A DNA stretch of 64,000 nucleotides, taken from NCBI RefSeq assembly GCF_024600715.1, contig NZ_CP102332.1, positions 6,572,001-6,636,000 of the forward strand, written 5' to 3'. Source of the stretch: Streptomyces changanensis (GTDB taxonomy: Bacteria; Actinomycetota; Actinomycetes; Streptomycetales; Streptomycetaceae). Position 1 is the stretch's first letter, and each line of letters starts with the position of its first letter. The notes beneath the pieces were generated by a model. The model saw only the letters and a list, made by a program, of their open reading frames with translations, made no database searches and was not told where the DNA came from. Of this stretch, positions 11,702 through 18,834 are shown piece after piece. The position numbers and the translations under genes were made by a program.

Positions 11702-13240
11702 TCACGGGCGCAGGAGCGGGAAGTCGACGCGGGCCCACAGGTCGCGCACTCCGGTGGGCACCTCGTCGGCCGGGGTCCCGTCGGTGGTCCAGACGTGGGC
11801 GTGGGCGGGGGACCCGTCGGCCGGCGGCCAACCCGGCTCCCCGGTGGCGGCGAAGTCGGCCCAGGCGCGCACCATGCGACCCGCCAGTTCGCGGTCGGCG
11901 GGGGTCGGTGGACCGCCGATGAGGAACTCCAGGTGGGGACAGTCCAGATTGCCGAAGGCGAACGGCATGTCGGCGCAGTGCCAGGCCCGTACCACCCGGT
12001 CCGGCTCGAGGCGCCGACGGTCGAAACGTGACCGGAACACCCTGCCGCCGCCCCGTGCGTGCAGTTCGGCGAGCCGGGTGGTGAACTCGCCGAACAGCAG
12101 GTCGCCGAAGACGGCGAGGTAGACGTCGAGCACCGGGGCGTGGGGCATGGCCGCGCGGTAGCCGGCGACCAGGCCGTCGGGGAGGCCGAAGTCCTCGACG
12201 AAACGGGCGAGTCGCTCGTCGGTGGTGACCTTGGCACTGCTGCCGACGGCGTCGAGCAACCAGTACTCCTCCGTGGTGTGACACACCAGCAGGTCCACGT
12301 CGCGGGCCGCGCCGGCGGCCAGCCGCGCGAGGGGGTCGGTGGGCAGGACGTCGCCGTCGAGGACGGGCGCGTAGAGCACGGGGTCGTAGTGGCGTGAGCC
12401 GGACGCCGGGTCGTTCCGGTAGGCGTCCACGACCCGGTCCGAGGCGGCGACCAGGGCCTGCGGGCTCGTGGAGGCCAGGCCCCGGGCCGTGGCGGCGCAC
12501 CCCGCGGCCGCGGCGACCTCACGGGTCGTCGCCGCGGCCACGCCGGGGGTGGCGTACGGGCTGGCGGCGCTGTGCGCGATGGCCCGGTGGAACAGGCCCC
12601 GGGCCCGGTCCATCACCATCAGGCAGGCGACGGACGTGGCGCCGGCGGACTGGCCGGCGACCGTGACGTTTCCGGGATCGCCGCCGAACGCGGCGATGTT
12701 GTCGCGCACCCAGCGCAGGGCCGCGACCTGGTCGAGCAGGCCCCGGTTGTCCGGGTGGGCGTTCGTCCCGTCGCCCGGCCCGCCGGCCTCCGCGTGGTCC
12801 GGCTCGTCGGCCGGTACGTGTCCGAAGCCCTCGAAACCCACCCGGTAGTTGAGGGTGACCACCACCAGGCCGGCACGCGCCAGCGCGGTGCCGTCGAAGT
12901 CGGGTTGGGCCGAGGAGCCGAAGGTGTACGCGCCGCCGTGGATCCACACCAGCACGGGCAGGCGTCCGCCGACGCGCGCCGGGGTCCAGACGTTGACGGT
13001 GAGCACGTCCTCGTCACCGGGTGACCACGCCGGGGCGCCGGGCAGTCGGGCCGACTGCGGGGCCACCGGGCCGAAGGCGGTGCAGTCCCGTACCTCCGTC
13101 CACGGCCGTGCCGGGCGCGGCGCCCGGAAGCGGTCGGCGCCGAACGGCGGCGCGGCGTACGGGATCCCGAGGACGGCGACGACGTCGGCGGACGCCCGCA
13201 GGCCCCGTACCGGGCCGGTCGTCGTCTGGAAGACGTGCAT
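11702..13240 (-). CDS. Type-B carboxylesterase
   Basis: A 512-residue alpha/beta hydrolase of the carboxylesterase/para-nitrobenzyl esterase family. Visible are the nucleophile elbow GQSAGATS (Ser), the oxyanion-hole segment VWIHGGAYTFGS, a mid-region acidic residue in HTTEEYW, and the late His in RAWHCADMPFAFG. It hydrolyses carboxylic esters. No signal peptide is seen, so it should be cytoplasmic. ATG 13240 is chosen because GAGGTGG lies 6 bases upstream and it starts right at the conserved MHVFQTTTGPVRG. Confidence 0.92.
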   Translation of the reverse strand: MHVFQTTTGPVRGLRASADVVAVLGIPYAAPPFGADRFRAPRPARPWTEVRDCTAFGPVAPQSARLPGAPAWSPGDEDVLTVNVWTPARVGGRLPVLVWIHGGAYTFGSSAQPDFDGTALARAGLVVVTLNYRVGFEGFGHVPADEPDHAEAGGPGDGTNAHPDNRGLLDQVAALRWVRDNIAAFGGDPGNVTVAGQSAGATSVACLMVMDRARGLFHRAIAHSAASPYATPGVAAATTREVAAAAGCAATARGLASTSPQALVAASDRVVDAYRNDPASGSRHYDPVLYAPVLDGDVLPTDPLARLAAGAARDVDLLVCHTTEEYWLLDAVGSSAKVTTDERLARFVEDFGLPDGLVAGYRAAMPHAPVLDVYLAVFGDLLFGEFTTRLAELHARGGGRVFRSRFDRRRLEPDRVVRAWHCADMPFAFGNLDCPHLEFLIGGPPTPADRELAGRMVRAWADFAATGEPGWPPADGSPAHAHVWTTDGTPADEVPTGVRDLWARVDFPLLRP

Positions 13241-13267
13241 GGAGGGCCACCTCTCGCCGCGGGTCAC

Positions 13268-13591: not shown

Positions 13592-13601
13592 ATTATTTTA
13601 A

Positions 13602-13628
13602 TTGACAAATCACCCAAAGAGTGATTTG
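13602..13628 (+). promoter_or_regulatory. AT-rich promoter with overlapping dyad before the peptide operon
   Basis: A consensus TTGACA (13602-13607) sits in one of the most AT-rich stretches of the window. It overlaps an 8-base perfect inverted repeat, CAAATCAC (13606-13613) and GTGATTTG (13621-13628), separated by CCAAAGA. The -10 is not clear; ATTTGC or TTTGCG fall at the right spacing. A repressor or activator bound here would cover the promoter spacer. The 72 bases to the first start would be the leader. Confidence 0.5.
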
Positions 13629-13699
13629 CGAGGTCGGTCTGTGTGTGCTGCGCTGGATGTGCAAGGAAAGAATGCCCACTCCAAAGGAGATGATGGGGT

Positions 13700-13891
13700 A
13701 TGGCGACGCTGGACAACGTGACCCGTGAGCAAGTCAAGGCTGCGCTCGACACCGAGGTCGAACAGGTACTGAACCCCGGCGAGGCCCAGGGCTTCTACCG
13801 TGACACCCGCGAATGCGCGGCACTTGCCCTGAAGGGCGGCTCCGGCAGCCTGCTGCTGTCACCGCCTGCTCCCCGTCCGAAGAAGCGCTGA
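13700..13891 (+). CDS. 63-residue peptide, possible RiPP-type precursor or small partner protein
   Basis: I do not recognise a family. The product begins MATLDNVTREQVKAALDTEV and looks helical and acidic up to about residue 43. It then passes through ALALKGGSGS into a proline-rich basic end, SPPAPRPKKR. The layout resembles a leader of 45-47 residues followed by a Gly-Gly motif and a 16-residue tail, as in RiPP precursors; there is only one Cys (residue 39). The start is firm: AAAGGAGA at 13683-13690, 9 bases before ATG. It heads a five-gene operon with 11 bases to the next gene. It could equally be a small structural partner of the downstream proteins. Confidence 0.65.
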   Translation: MATLDNVTREQVKAALDTEVEQVLNPGEAQGFYRDTRECAALALKGGSGSLLLSPPAPRPKKR

Positions 13892-13902
13892 CGGGTAACG
13901 GC

Positions 13903-14658
13903 ATGGAGAGTCCCGGCACTCAGACGCCCCTGGCAGGCGCTGTGCAGGACCTCGCTTCCCAGGTGGTCTCCGCCCTCGAGGGCGGAGACCACTCGGCGGT
14001 GTTCGCCGGTACGGCGGCGGCCGTCACCAGCGACGAGGACCTCCTGCTCGCGGCCGTACGCGTCCTCGGCCCCGACGCGCTGCTGCCCGGCACCCTCGGC
14101 ACGAGCCCGCCACACCCCGACGACCTCGCACTCTTCGAGAAGGCGGTCATCGCCTTCCCGCCCGCCCCGGACGCGTCGCTCACCTCGCGCTGGACCCACT
14201 GGGGGATGACGCGCACCCTGCGCGACCTCAGCACCGCGGCCATCGTCCCGCACGACGACGAACCCGACACCGCATGGGTGGACACCCTGCCCTGGCAGAC
14301 GCTCACCCATCAGCTGGCGCTGCTCGCCGGCCTCGCGGCGCCCCCGGTGCCGGCCGCTGTCCAGGCGTCGTCCGTGCCGACCGCGCCATCGACGGCGGAG
14401 AGCGCACTGGTTCGCGCCGCCGGCCGGCGGACCGTGGACATCGCGCGCGGCTTCGTCCGTGCCGTACGCCGCCGGGGCTGGCTGCAGGCCGCCGGAGCGG
14501 GCCGCTGGCTGTCGGTCCTGGACGACGTCCCGGACACGCTGGGGCTCGACACCGGGCTGGAGTTCGTCGCGGCGATGGGCGGCGACGACCCCCGCGTGGC
14601 CCTGCACCTCCACGCCGCCCGGCACGGGCGGGCGCAGGGCCGGGGAGACGCCCGATGA
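13903..14658 (+). CDS. Unrecognised helical protein of the peptide operon, 251 residues
   Basis: No domain recognised. The product is predicted to be largely alpha-helical and acidic through the first half (LAGAVQDLASQVVSALEGGD; DEDLLLAAVRVLGPDALLPG). It has Trp-rich loops (SRWTHWGMTRTLRDLS) and a basic stretch, RGFVRAVRRRGWLQAAGAGRW. No signal peptide or membrane segment. The stop overlaps the next start by ATGA (14655-14658), so it is translationally coupled to the first toroid-like protein. ATG 13903 has only a weak site upstream, consistent with coupling to the 63-residue peptide gene. Confidence 0.7.
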   Translation: MESPGTQTPLAGAVQDLASQVVSALEGGDHSAVFAGTAAAVTSDEDLLLAAVRVLGPDALLPGTLGTSPPHPDDLALFEKAVIAFPPAPDASLTSRWTHWGMTRTLRDLSTAAIVPHDDEPDTAWVDTLPWQTLTHQLALLAGLAAPPVPAAVQASSVPTAPSTAESALVRAAGRRTVDIARGFVRAVRRRGWLQAAGAGRWLSVLDDVPDTLGLDTGLEFVAAMGGDDPRVALHLHAARHGRAQGRGDAR

Positions 14659-15746
14659 CGCCGCCGTCCGCGGGCCCGCCCCGCGGAGGCCCGACAGACC
14701 TGACGGGCCGGCCGGGCCGTACACGTCCGGCAGGCGAGGCGGAGCCGACGGACGAGACGCACGCGACCGGCCGGACCGATCCGACCGGCCAGGCCGGCCC
14801 GACGGATCTGACCGCAGTGGCCGGTGCCGCGCTGAGCTGGCTGTCCGCCCACCGCGCCGACTTCCGCCTCGGGCCGCACGCGCTGGAGCCGGATGCCGAC
14901 CCCAACGCCTCGTGGAAGCGCGTCGGCGAACTGGCCCAGCTGTGCGCCTGCGTCCGCCGCAGCACGGCCCCGGGCTCGCCGCTCCACGGGACGGCGACCG
15001 CCCTGGTGCGCCACGCCTGGCACGAGGCCGGCGACGGCGCCCTCTTCCTCGACGTCCAGCGCCTCGAGCCGAACGCCACGTACCCCCTCGAGGTGTACGC
15101 GGCGTTCGCCGACGCGGGACTGCGCCACCCGCCGTACGAGGAACTGATCGGCCTGCTCGTGCGCACCCGCGGCTGGCGTACGCCGGAGCTGCTGCCCAAC
15201 CGCCTGCTCGGCGTCCTCAACTCGGAGCACCGCGCCGGGCTGGCACCGCGCAGGCGGATGGACGAGCCGCTGCGGCGCACGTGGCTCGGGGCCCTCCCCG
15301 AACCGTGGCTCTTCGAGAAGTCCGCCGCCTACACCCTCACGCACGTCGTGTTCCACCTGACGGACTGGGGCCACCACCCCGACACCGTCCCCGACGACAT
15401 CGCCGCCTACCTGCACACCTGGCTGCCGCCCTGGCTCGACACGTGCGTCGAGGCGCAGCACTGGGACCTCTGCGGCGAACTGCTCGCCGTCGCCGCGAGC
15501 CTGCCGAGCCCGCCCGCCCCGGACGTCACCGAGGACGCGTGGTCGGCACTGGCCGCCGCGCAGGACGGGGACGGCGCCCTGCCGGAGGTCGGCCGCGGGC
15601 CACGCGGTGAGGACGTCCCGCGCGTCTTCGTCAACTGCTACCACTCGACGCTGGTGACCGCCTTCGCCGCCACCCTGACCGTGGCCCGCCGCACCGGCCA
15701 CCCCCACGGCGGCGACCGGCACACCCTCCGGGAGGCACCGGCATGA
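14655..15746 (+). CDS. Alpha-toroid-like protein A (DUF6895-like), 363 residues
   Basis: After a Thr/Gly/Pro-rich N-terminal stretch of about 50 residues, the body is helical and clearly homologous to the next gene product. Shared landmarks: LSWLSAHR at the domain start, ELLPNRLL, THVVFHLTDWG, WDLCGELLAVAASL, a QW-like AAAQDGDGALPEVG, and a final YHSTLVTAF. The repeated helical-hairpin pattern with a QDGDG turn suggests an alpha/alpha-toroid like those of terpene cyclases or glycan enzymes; the DUF6895 assignment is from memory. Conserved His, Asp and Tyr-His residues could form an active site. Coupled on both sides by ATGA overlaps. Confidence 0.75.
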   Translation: MTPPSAGPPRGGPTDLTGRPGRTRPAGEAEPTDETHATGRTDPTGQAGPTDLTAVAGAALSWLSAHRADFRLGPHALEPDADPNASWKRVGELAQLCACVRRSTAPGSPLHGTATALVRHAWHEAGDGALFLDVQRLEPNATYPLEVYAAFADAGLRHPPYEELIGLLVRTRGWRTPELLPNRLLGVLNSEHRAGLAPRRRMDEPLRRTWLGALPEPWLFEKSAAYTLTHVVFHLTDWGHHPDTVPDDIAAYLHTWLPPWLDTCVEAQHWDLCGELLAVAASLPSPPAPDVTEDAWSALAAAQDGDGALPEVGRGPRGEDVPRVFVNCYHSTLVTAFAATLTVARRTGHPHGGDRHTLREAPA

Positions 15747-16720
15747 GCGGCACCACCGACGCGGGCGGCCTGACCGGCACGGGCGGGATGACGGGCCCGG
15801 GCGGGATCCGTCTGATCCAATCGGTCGGCACGGGCGCGCTGGAGTGGCTGCACGCCCACCGTGACGGGTTCGGCCTCGAACCGGACGTCGACCCGGAGAC
15901 CGGCTTCCTCGACCGCTTCAAACCCGTCGGGGAACTCGCCGTGATCTGCAAGGTCCTCTTCCGGGAGGGCGTCTCCGGCTCCCGCCACGCCGCGCTCGCC
16001 CGCCAGCTCATCGACCACGCCTGGCGGGACGTCCTGGACGGGGGCCGCATGCTGGTCCGCGGCCAGCGGATCGAACCCTTCTCGCCCATCCCCTTCGAGG
16101 TCTACCTGCCGTTCAAGGAACTCGGCTACGCCCAGCCCGAGCTGGACCGCCTGATCCGCGTCAACCACCGCCTCGCCAGCTGGCAGGCCGCGGAACTCCT
16201 CCCCGTCCGCCGGCTGTGCCTGAGCGCCTTCGAGCGCCGCTACGGGCTCACGCCGACCGTGCCCGAGGACGAAGCGGCCGGCCGCACCTGGCTCGCCCGC
16301 ACCCCGGAGCCGTGGACGGTCGTCACCCGCACCGGGTACGACATCACCCACACCGTCTTCCACCTGACCGACTGGGGCGAGAACCCCGCCGGCCTCCCCC
16401 CGGACATCGCCCGCTACCTCGACCTGTGGCTGCCCGCCTGGCTCGACGACTGGGCCGACCTGGAGCGCTGGGACCTGCTCGGGGAGCTGCTCGTCGTGGA
16501 CGCCTGCCTGCCCCGCCCCACGCTGGACGCCGCCGCGTGGGAGGTGTTCGCCGCGGCCCAGCAGCCCGACGGCGCCATGCCCGCCATCGGCGGCATGCCC
16601 GAGGGCGACCCGGAGGACGTGTTCGACATCGTCTACCACTCCACGCTGGTCGCCGCGTTCGCCTCCGTACTGGCCACCTCGCGCGCCTTCACCGCCCTGG
16701 TCGACGGGGCCCCCTCGTGA
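15743..16720 (+). CDS. Alpha-toroid-like protein B (DUF6895-like), 325 residues
   Basis: A tandem paralogue of the preceding product. Landmarks by residue: ALEWLHAHR (32-40), PVGELAVICKVLF (61-73), ELLPVRRL (151-158), ITHTVFHLTDWG (201-212), WDLLGELLVVDACL (243-256), QQPDGAMPAIGG (273-284) and YHSTLVAAF (298-306). The invariant His207, Asp210 and His299 are candidates for catalysis or metal binding. No export signal. It overlaps both neighbours by four bases (ATGA before, GTGA after). Two divergent copies in one operon suggest a heterodimer or two successive steps on one substrate. Function unknown. Confidence 0.78.
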   Translation: MSGTTDAGGLTGTGGMTGPGGIRLIQSVGTGALEWLHAHRDGFGLEPDVDPETGFLDRFKPVGELAVICKVLFREGVSGSRHAALARQLIDHAWRDVLDGGRMLVRGQRIEPFSPIPFEVYLPFKELGYAQPELDRLIRVNHRLASWQAAELLPVRRLCLSAFERRYGLTPTVPEDEAAGRTWLARTPEPWTVVTRTGYDITHTVFHLTDWGENPAGLPPDIARYLDLWLPAWLDDWADLERWDLLGELLVVDACLPRPTLDAAAWEVFAAAQQPDGAMPAIGGMPEGDPEDVFDIVYHSTLVAAFASVLATSRAFTALVDGAPS

Positions 16721-17784
16721 CCGCGTCGACCAGCGTCGACCCGGCGCCCGGCGCCCCGGCCGCCAGGACGCGGGAGACCGACGCCGCACGGCTGGACGAC
16801 GCCGTGCGCGCGGTCGACGCCCCGGACGTCGTCTTCGCCCTCTCCCGCCACGGCCACCGCACGGTCCGCTGCGGCGGCACCGGGCCGCCGCCGCCCGCGC
16901 CGCGCGACCGCCTGCGTTACGAACTCGGCTCCGCGTCCAAGCCGTACACCGGACTGCTGCTCGCCCACCTCGTCCACCTCGGGGCGGTGCACGGGACCGA
17001 CCCGGCCTCTTCCTGTCTGCGCCCCGAGCGCGGCACGACCGTCGGACCCCGCGGCCCCATCACCCTCACCCACCTCGTCACCCACACCAGCGGACTGCCG
17101 CCGCTCCCCGTCGACTTCTACGCCCAGGCCCTGCCCCGGTGGGGGACCGACCCGTACGCCGGCTACCCCTCCCGGAGGGTCGTCCGCGCCTTCCTGCGGA
17201 GCCGTCCGCGCCACGCGCCGGGCACCCGCTGGCGGTACTCGAACTTCGGCGTCGCCGTCCTCGGCCACGCACTCGCCGCCGCCACGGCGACCCCCTGGGA
17301 GGAGCTGGTCACCGGCCACGTCCTGCGCCCCCTGGACCTCACGGGGACCGGGCTGCGGCCGGCCGGCCCCGAGACCGACGCCACCGGGCACCGCGCCGAC
17401 GGCACGACCCCCACCCCACCCCTGCGGATCGGCGGCTTCCAGGCGGCGGGCGCGGTCCGGGCCACCCCCCACGACCTGCTCACCTTCCTCGAAGCGCACC
17501 TCACCCCCGACGGCACGCCCCTCGCCGCCGCGCTCCACGAGGTGCGCCGGCCGGTACTGCGCCGGGGGTTCGGGCACCGCCACACCCACACCCTGACGTG
17601 GTTCCGGCACCCGGCGGCCGACGGGGGCACGATGTACTTCCACAGCGGCGCGACCTCCGGCCAGACCTCCTTCCTCGGCTTCCGACCGGACCGGGGCGGC
17701 GCGCTCGCCGCCGTGTGCAACCGCCGCCACGGCTCCACCAACGCCCTGATCCCGACGGCCTACGCCCTCCTGTGGGACCTCTGA
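16717..17784 (+). CDS. Cytoplasmic beta-lactamase/PBP-fold serine hydrolase
   Basis: A 355-residue class C beta-lactamase/esterase-fold protein. Motif 1 is S72-A-S-K75, motif 2 is the Tyr-Ser-Asn of RWRYSNFG, and the KTG position is held by HSGATSGQTS. It lacks any signal peptide, unlike cell-wall PBPs, so it most likely acts on a cytoplasmic ester or amide. In related biosynthetic pathways PBP-fold enzymes release or cyclise peptides; here that is inference. The GTG start overlaps the previous stop (GTGA), making it the last coupled gene of the operon. Confidence 0.85.
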   Translation: MTASTSVDPAPGAPAARTRETDAARLDDAVRAVDAPDVVFALSRHGHRTVRCGGTGPPPPAPRDRLRYELGSASKPYTGLLLAHLVHLGAVHGTDPASSCLRPERGTTVGPRGPITLTHLVTHTSGLPPLPVDFYAQALPRWGTDPYAGYPSRRVVRAFLRSRPRHAPGTRWRYSNFGVAVLGHALAAATATPWEELVTGHVLRPLDLTGTGLRPAGPETDATGHRADGTTPTPPLRIGGFQAAGAVRATPHDLLTFLEAHLTPDGTPLAAALHEVRRPVLRRGFGHRHTHTLTWFRHPAADGGTMYFHSGATSGQTSFLGFRPDRGGALAAVCNRRHGSTNALIPTAYALLWDL

Positions 17785-17865
17785 CGGCCCTTTGGCGTCC
17801 TCCCTCCCCGCCCGCCAGGAAAAGGGGTGGACGCCCACCGCCCGCCGCCGGTCGGATGGCGTCCC

Positions 17866-18834
17866 ATGGACGCAGCGCGCATGCACCCCGACCAGCACCC
17901 CATCGACGACGACCTCGTACGGCGGCTGGTCGCCGGGCGGTTCCCCCGGTGGGCGGGGCTGCCGGTGCGTCGGTTCCCCTCCGGCGGCACGGTCAACGCC
18001 ATGTACCGGCTGGGCGACGACATGGTCGTACGGCTGCCGCTGGTGGCCGGCGCGGCCGGCGACGTGGAGCTGGAGCGGCAGTGGCTGCCCCGGCTCGCGC
18101 CGCGGCTGCCCGTCGCCGTCCCGGAGGTGCTCGGGGCGGGCGAGCCGGCGGAGGGGTATCCGTGGCCGTGGTCGGTGTACCGGTGGCTGCCGGGCGGTCC
18201 CCCCGACGAGGCGGCGCCGCCCGAGCCCTTGCGGCTGGCGGAGGACCTCGCCGGGTTCGTGGCCGCCATGCGGAGCCTCACGTTGCCGGACGGGCCGCGG
18301 GCCCACCGCGGCGGCCCGGTCTCCTCCCTGGACGCGGAGAGCCGCGCGGCGATCGAGGAGCTGCGCCGCACACCGGGGGAGGGCGTGGACTGCGACGCCG
18401 CGACCGCCGTGTGGGAGGAGGCGCTGCGGGCCCCGGCCTGGGACGGGCCACCGGTGTGGCTGCACGGCGACCTGATGCCGGGCAACCTGCTCGTGCACCG
18501 CGGCAGGTTGAGCGCGGTGATCGACTTCGGGTGCGCGGGGACGGGCGATCCGGCGTGCGACCTGTTCCCGGCGTGGAACCTCCTGCCACCCGACGCCCGG
18601 GAGGTCTTCCGCGCGCAGCTCGGCGTGGACGACGCGACCTGGGTCCGCGGCCGCGGGCGGACGCTCGCGCAGGCACTGGTGGCGCTGCCCTACTACCGGA
18701 CGACCAACCCGGCCATGGCCCGCAACGCCCGGCACGTCATCCGGGCCGTCCTCGGGGAGCGCCGGGCCCCGCGGGGTCCCGGAGCCCATCACCCGGACGC
18801 CGCGGCTCCGATCCGTGACGGCCGCACCCCTTAG
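17866..18834 (+). CDS. Aminoglycoside phosphotransferase-family kinase
   Basis: A 322-residue APH/choline-kinase-fold enzyme: nucleotide-binding FPSGGTVNAMYRLGDDMVVRLP, catalytic loop VWLHGDLMPGNLLV (Asp of the Brenner motif) and metal-binding VIDFGCAGTGDPACDL. It phosphorylates a hydroxyl on a drug or small metabolite with ATP; members of this Streptomyces group are mostly uncharacterised. Starts at GTG 17827 (AGGA site 6 bases upstream), ATG 17866 and ATG 17881 are all possible; family alignment favours the last two. It follows the five-gene operon by 80 bases and might be read with it. Confidence 0.88.
   Translation: MDAARMHPDQHPIDDDLVRRLVAGRFPRWAGLPVRRFPSGGTVNAMYRLGDDMVVRLPLVAGAAGDVELERQWLPRLAPRLPVAVPEVLGAGEPAEGYPWPWSVYRWLPGGPPDEAAPPEPLRLAEDLAGFVAAMRSLTLPDGPRAHRGGPVSSLDAESRAAIEELRRTPGEGVDCDAATAVWEEALRAPAWDGPPVWLHGDLMPGNLLVHRGRLSAVIDFGCAGTGDPACDLFPAWNLLPPDAREVFRAQLGVDDATWVRGRGRTLAQALVALPYYRTTNPAMARNARHVIRAVLGERRAPRGPGAHHPDAAAPIRDGRTP

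Follow-up and report, generated by a model that had tools for sequence, protein, structure and literature searches.

Introduction

The systems closest to the operon described here are two lasso peptide epimerases. MslH, whose mechanism is metal-dependent according to the title of its report, acts on a ribosomal precursor that is yet to mature and epimerises one of its residues (PMC10406935), providing a precedent for the activity in question, and an epimerase of the DUF6895 family for a lasso peptide is cited in PMC13352647 (Shi et al., ACS Catal 2026). Here, we describe a five-gene operon of Streptomyces changanensis (contig NZ_CP102332.1) within a 64,000-nucleotide stretch that was analysed as a whole (positions 6,572,001 to 6,636,000 of the forward strand; hereafter the window), encoding a 63-residue peptide, a helical protein, two DUF6895 paralogues (A and B, the products of genes 3 and 4) and a serine hydrolase of the S12/penicillin-binding protein (PBP) fold. 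Genes 3 and 4 share Pfam family PF21836 with the enzyme of Shi et al.; whereas that epimerase is placed in a lasso peptide pathway by its title, here two paralogues stand with an S12 hydrolase in an operon without lasso genes.

In its operon-like combination of a small peptide with unusual enzymes, and in being accessory in Streptomyces, the operon also resembles the families of ribosomally synthesised and post-translationally modified peptides (RiPPs) proposed by decRiPPter, which number 42 candidates (PMC7794033). We regard the operon as a candidate new RiPP class with a chemistry that we infer. MslH differs in having a metallophosphatase-type fold rather than that of the DUF6895 toroid.

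Results

Homologous loci were collected with gene 4, not the peptide, as the query, yielding 172 confirmed loci of which the best 80 were kept; the relatives found in this way are Streptomyces. The peptide was found by tblastn in 79 of these 80 loci, and the sole locus without it (L077) lies on a contig that begins within gene 2. An initial annotation of this DNA had named absence of the peptide from most homologous loci as evidence against a peptide-modifying pathway, and the neighbourhood search instead shows consistent co-occurrence. Two peptide copies in tandem are present in four loci (L005, L006, L008, L013). In the window, the coordinates and lengths of all five open reading frames, including the helical gene 2 product and the paralogous pair, were confirmed as claimed (Table 1), the peptide gene is preceded by the strong ribosome-binding site AAAGGAG, and genes 2 to 5 are joined by the described 4-base overlaps ATGA, ATGA and GTGA. 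In the homologous loci, with start positions from a rough gene caller, a 4-base overlap recurs at the DUF-DUF junction in 80/80 cases, between gene 2 and the first DUF6895 gene in 63/80, and between the second DUF6895 gene and the S12 gene in 67/78. The five genes form a real, jointly behaving unit.

We aligned 84 peptide sequences, 83 from relatives and the window's own, and refer to this form as type I. Residues 19–44 form a conserved motif, EAALxPxExxGxYRDSRECAALAL in relatives, followed by a hypervariable six-residue loop (45–50) and a nearly invariant tail, LLLSPPxPRPKK (51–63), in which positions 51–53 are LLL in most sequences. Positions 24, 26, 28, 31, 34, 37, 43, 55, 56 and 58–62 are invariant. 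The fraction of pairwise residue differences is 0.62 at residues 2–18, 0.21 at 19–44, 0.69 at 45–50 and 0.05 at 51–63, and codons differ in 0.25–0.37 of same-residue pairs per segment. Since residues in the tail differ in 5% of pairs and codons in 37%, purifying selection at the protein level is indicated, and, judged by these sequence comparisons, the peptide gene is genuine and under selection, beyond what chance would give. The earlier expectation of a conserved leader and a variable tail did not hold, as the tail is nearly invariant and the sequences vary in the N-terminus and the six-residue loop. At E<=1, neither the peptide nor the helical protein matched any model of Pfam or of NCBIfam.

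We then surveyed 249 Streptomycetaceae genomes, with the window's peptide as the peptide query (E<=0.001). DUF6895 was detected in 141 genomes (139 above the cut-off), gene 2 in 131 and the peptide in 70. DUF6895 and gene 2 occurred together in 127 genomes, DUF6895 alone in 14 and gene 2 alone in 4, a co-occurrence with a Fisher p of 1e-48 in a test that ignores kinship. The peptide lies beside gene 2 in 70/70 peptide-bearing genomes and beside DUF6895 in 69/70, the exception (G228) carrying the peptide and a shortened gene 2 with no enzymes. Genomes with DUF6895 and no gene 2 contain either of two other peptide contexts described below (the second context in G023, G087, G143 and G191; the third in G006, G138, G191, G219 and G236), truncated or lone copies taken for remnants (G055, G106, G205), no matching called gene (G103), or copies below the Pfam cut-off (G234, G241). 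The gene 2 copies without DUF6895 (G149, G163, G186, G228) are short, truncated or isolated, and are likewise taken for remnants.

Enzymes of this kind are accompanied by more than one sort of peptide. A called open reading frame of 35–95 residues lies just upstream of 106/110 gene 2 homologues, versus 51/1108 other genes of the same loci. Of 22 loci (L097–L118), most of them selected because they carry single or extra DUF6895 copies, 19 have the order peptide, gene 2, DUF6895, S12, and an upstream peptide of 58–82 residues is present in 19/19 of these single-DUF6895 loci (18 by gene caller, L116 by raw reading); L108, L114 and L118 are without gene 2 and S12. Of 14 matching genomes from outside Streptomycetaceae, 13 were fetched (all except G721), and the system is present in five; in another actinomycete family (f89), 5/5 loci have the same order, each with its own peptide (four by the caller, the fifth from the DNA). 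The 129 loci with a called peptide comprise 90 of type I, 12 of type I', 17 of type II, 8 of type III and 2 others, in types defined by our own regular expressions on rough gene calls; because several loci come from repeated fetching of one genome, the counts of loci are not independent. The sequence is GGGLLLAGLLLISPPTPRPK in type I', LLLLLLLSPKEPKE in type II and LLLLAGALLL...VQNLACAxAF in type III. The types share a Leu/Ala-rich patch, and their tails are different. Plasmid-borne versions were also seen: the five-gene operon in Streptomyces fungicidicus (L178, 4139-7994) and, in Kitasatospora (L177, 4920-7915), a form with one DUF6895 gene whose S12 gene is shortened.

Both middle proteins belong to DUF6895, with matches to PF21836 spanning 284–288 of 289 positions (A, E 3.7e-89, 299 bits; B, E 4.1e-84, 283 bits; cut-off 23.8). 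The motifs THxVFHLTDWG and YHSTLV, described as shared between the paralogues, are indeed present in both; the third, QDGDGA, occurs in A, whereas B has QQPDGA. A confident model of the gene 4 product is an alpha/alpha toroid ((alpha/alpha) barrel), which supports the toroid fold previously suggested for the middle proteins. Candidate catalytic residues of B are K60, E64, H203, D244, E248 and H299; the same K/E/H/D/E/H set is kept in A, and these residues are common to the different DUF6895 contexts. In a DUF6895 tree, A, B and the single copies form separate clades, and within the single-copy clade the loci with type II and type III precursors fall to separate subclades. Since a DUF6895 protein with ITHEVFYLTDFG and CYHTTLV motifs is encoded on a Cupriavidus oxalaticus plasmid (L176, 8842-9783), the family reaches into the Betaproteobacteria.

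The gene 5 product matches PF00144 (E 2.3e-48) and is an S12 serine hydrolase. As described earlier, it has the SxxK and YxN motifs (SASK with S72 and K75; Y174-S-N) and no evident signal peptide, and the third box reads H309-S-G. SxxK and HxG are intact in 117 of 118 S12 homologues and YSN in 114, and a simple window test found a strongly hydrophobic N-terminus in three. Its relatives by sequence in the PDB are IS11, class C beta-lactamases, flp, the S12 peptidase 3wwx, the R61-type D-Ala-D-Ala carboxypeptidase, alkaline D-peptidase and the SurE entry 6ksu. PBP-fold enzymes generally favour D-residues, and by analogy gene 5 may do so as well. It shares fold family, SxxK, YxN and HxG with the S12 peptidases and PBP-fold enzymes of this list (3wwx, R61, alkaline D-peptidase, SurE-type); unlike them, it has no evident signal peptide and is coupled to a precursor-peptide operon. 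A full-length SurE-type PBP thioesterase was considered and rejected, as the match to 6ksu (E 3.7e-9) covers residues 69–355 of the 471-residue chain, stopping at 355 without the C-terminal part.

The gene 2 product was modelled confidently (predicted local distance difference test score, pLDDT, 87.6) as an all-helical protein, with no telling match. It is a constant partner of the DUF6895 and S12 proteins, and its role is perhaps in precursor binding or as a scaffold.

DUF6895 proteins also stand next to small peptides unrelated to type I. In a second context, a peptide of 65–72 residues ending in ...GYVLAWExYVLVV... precedes a DUF6895 protein of 547–596 residues (loci in Table 1), which looks like another uncharacterised peptide system. 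In a third, with protein functions judged by eye, an acidic peptide of 37–46 residues ending in ..C[IV][VT]N[NH]S[SH][AE][LM] is accompanied by a glycosyltransferase-like protein and one or two DUF6895 proteins (L163, L168, L169, L170; in L167 the contig ends first). An MFS-like protein is present in L163, L168 and L170, and in loci that show two DUF6895 copies, one of the two has lost candidate catalytic residues. Outside Streptomycetaceae, a 75-residue peptide with a similar LAWDGYLLIY stretch has as neighbours a methyltransferase-like gene and a distantly related DUF6895 protein (L151, 5938-8246).

Upstream of the operon, the 8-base dyad of the initial annotation exists, yet it is not conserved, and a sigma-70-type promoter scan gave no site. 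An inverted-repeat scan of the 140 bases upstream of 83 other peptide genes found none carrying the dyad, which gives no support to it as a conserved operator; the nearest form, spotted by eye in L003, has one mismatch. The operon is flanked in the window by a COesterase-family protein upstream (11705-13267, minus strand) and an APH-family phosphotransferase downstream (17827-18834, plus strand). Two non-operon families alone, both syntenic and of secreted enzymes, exceed 24 of the 80 loci (L003–L082). Their genes stand convergent to the operon, in 68 loci for one family and 47 for the other, and are annotated in one record as an alpha-lytic protease prodomain protein and an alkaline phosphatase D, respectively. 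The gene of the first family lies ~1 kb downstream in its 68/80 loci, where the window has the APH-family gene instead.

Table 1 Features of the operon (window positions) and loci of the second DUF6895 context (locus positions).
Feature	Position	Strand	Remark
63-residue precursor-like peptide, gene 1	13700..13891	+	present by tblastn in 79/80 homologous loci
Helical protein "hel", gene 2, 251 residues	13903..14658	+	without Pfam family; in 131/249 Streptomycetaceae genomes
DUF6895 paralogue A, gene 3, 363 residues, predicted peptide epimerase	14655..15746	+	PF21836
DUF6895 paralogue B, gene 4, 325 residues, predicted peptide epimerase	15743..16720	+	PF21836; toroid model
S12/PBP-fold serine hydrolase, gene 5, 355 residues	16717..17784	+	PF00144
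8-base dyad CAAATCAC-N7-GTGATTTG, 5' of the peptide gene	13609..13631	.	not conserved in relatives
Loci of the second DUF6895 context	L114 6696-8637, L118 6024-8090, L162 6223-8252, L164 5224-7217, L165 5523-7526, L166 6162-8192

Discussion

An encoded precursor peptide lies beside enzymes and is conserved with them as a pair, in the manner of a RiPP pathway. Gene order, its conservation, co-occurrence, intact catalytic motifs and the predicted fold are directly supported, and there is good support for an operon of peptide maturation in which both DUF6895 copies are intact. The RiPP-like, peptide-modifying operon proposed in the initial annotation is thus upheld by the presence of the peptide with the enzymes in intact loci, by the other precursor types and the two further DUF6895 peptide contexts, by the toroid model and by the DUF6895 lasso peptide epimerase as cited. 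The same annotation had held that a strictly conserved tail, combined with enzymes of established unrelated function, would speak against it; the tail is conserved, but the sole reported function of DUF6895 is modification of a peptide.

From here we infer the substrate relation, epimerisation, the order of steps and the D-specificity of the S12 enzyme, and we give about even odds (0.5) to a RiPP-like pathway in which DUF6895 epimerisation is followed by cleavage or joining at a D-residue by the PBP-fold enzyme. The 63-residue peptide would be the precursor of a self-contained pathway, probably held or presented by the helical gene 2 product. Bound in the central cavity of the two DUF6895 toroids, the precursor would be epimerised at one or more positions, most likely within the Leu/Ala-rich stretch that leads up to the SPPxPRPKK tail or adjacent to it, through acid/base proton exchange at C-alpha by the invariant His/Glu/Lys/Asp set. 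Next, the S12/PBP-fold enzyme in the cytoplasm would acylate at a D-residue of the epimerised precursor, in a step ending either in hydrolysis, with the tail or leader removed, or in transfer or cyclisation.

Several observations weigh against this reading. The reported DUF6895 epimerase acts, by its title, on a lasso peptide; the DUF6895 loci read here showed no neighbouring lasso genes. The usual RiPP pattern of a conserved leader and a variable C-terminal core, which is no strict criterion, is inverted in the type I precursor. The PDB relatives of gene 5 are of a general kind, with class C beta-lactamases among them and a best E of 2.9e-15, so that its D-specificity is argued at the level of the superfamily. 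No conserved exporter or dedicated regulator family was found around the operon in the 80 loci, and 8 of the 13 fetched DUF6895 genomes outside Streptomycetaceae are without this system. A lasso peptide cluster as such was rejected, since Pfam comparison of the five genes and their immediate neighbours, with the wider window left unscanned for them, gave no B protease or C cyclase.

Of the alternatives, the one that survives best keeps the same relation between precursor and enzymes, with the DUF6895 pair carrying out another reaction in the toroid cavity, such as dehydration, lyase-type cleavage, isomerisation or cyclisation, and the lasso peptide epimerase being a special case. We consider this unlikely, given that epimerisation is the one DUF6895 activity reported, as far as the title of that report conveys, and that the candidate residues recur across the contexts. 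It is rather improbable that the PBP-fold enzyme is instead a cyclase or transpeptidase like the trans-acting PBP-type thioesterases, giving a macrocycle or head-to-tail product. According to a review, such enzymes have a pocket that accommodates the acyl-enzyme's C-terminal D-residue, a role presumed for the pocket of the SurE structure 6ksu, and 6ksu is among the gene 5 matches (E 3.7e-9); however, the 355-residue gene 5 product is nearer in sequence to the hydrolases IS11, flp and 3wwx and is without the C-terminal part of the 6ksu chain.

We hold it for quite improbable that the peptide is a small subunit, carrier or regulator of an enzyme complex acting on an unrelated small molecule. The near-invariant type I tail would suit an interaction motif and the missing conserved exporter would fit as well, but four precursor types with different tails occur with the same enzymes, second peptide copies stand in tandem in 4/80 loci, and unrelated peptides occupy the other DUF6895 contexts. 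A defence or toxin-antitoxin-like module in place of biosynthesis would suit the patchy distribution and the lack of an exporter but is very improbable, as 0/5 operon proteins match a PADLOC model at E<=0.01, so that no known anti-phage system is recognised at that threshold.

Returning to the epimerisation pathway, a bolder extension, which we regard as speculative and improbable in its full form, would make these operons a widespread, exporter-less group of actinomycete RiPPs. Their Leu/Ala/Gly-rich core would be turned to D at several positions by tandem toroid epimerases with a division of labour, to yield an L,D-peptide that is membrane-active or self-assembling and is released intracellularly by a dedicated D-specific PBP-fold peptidase or cyclase. 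DUF6895 would then be a family of general peptide epimerases, taken up by four or more precursor families that are unrelated to each other.

If the proposed pathway is true, it would supply a substrate and a context for a domain of unknown function that more than half of the sampled Streptomycetaceae genomes carry (141/249), and would add a candidate RiPP class unnamed in the family libraries searched. The small operon and the conserved tail make reconstitution practical, and an epimerase and a D-specific hydrolase in one operon would constitute a simple and testable logic by which ribosomal peptides with D-residues are made and released.

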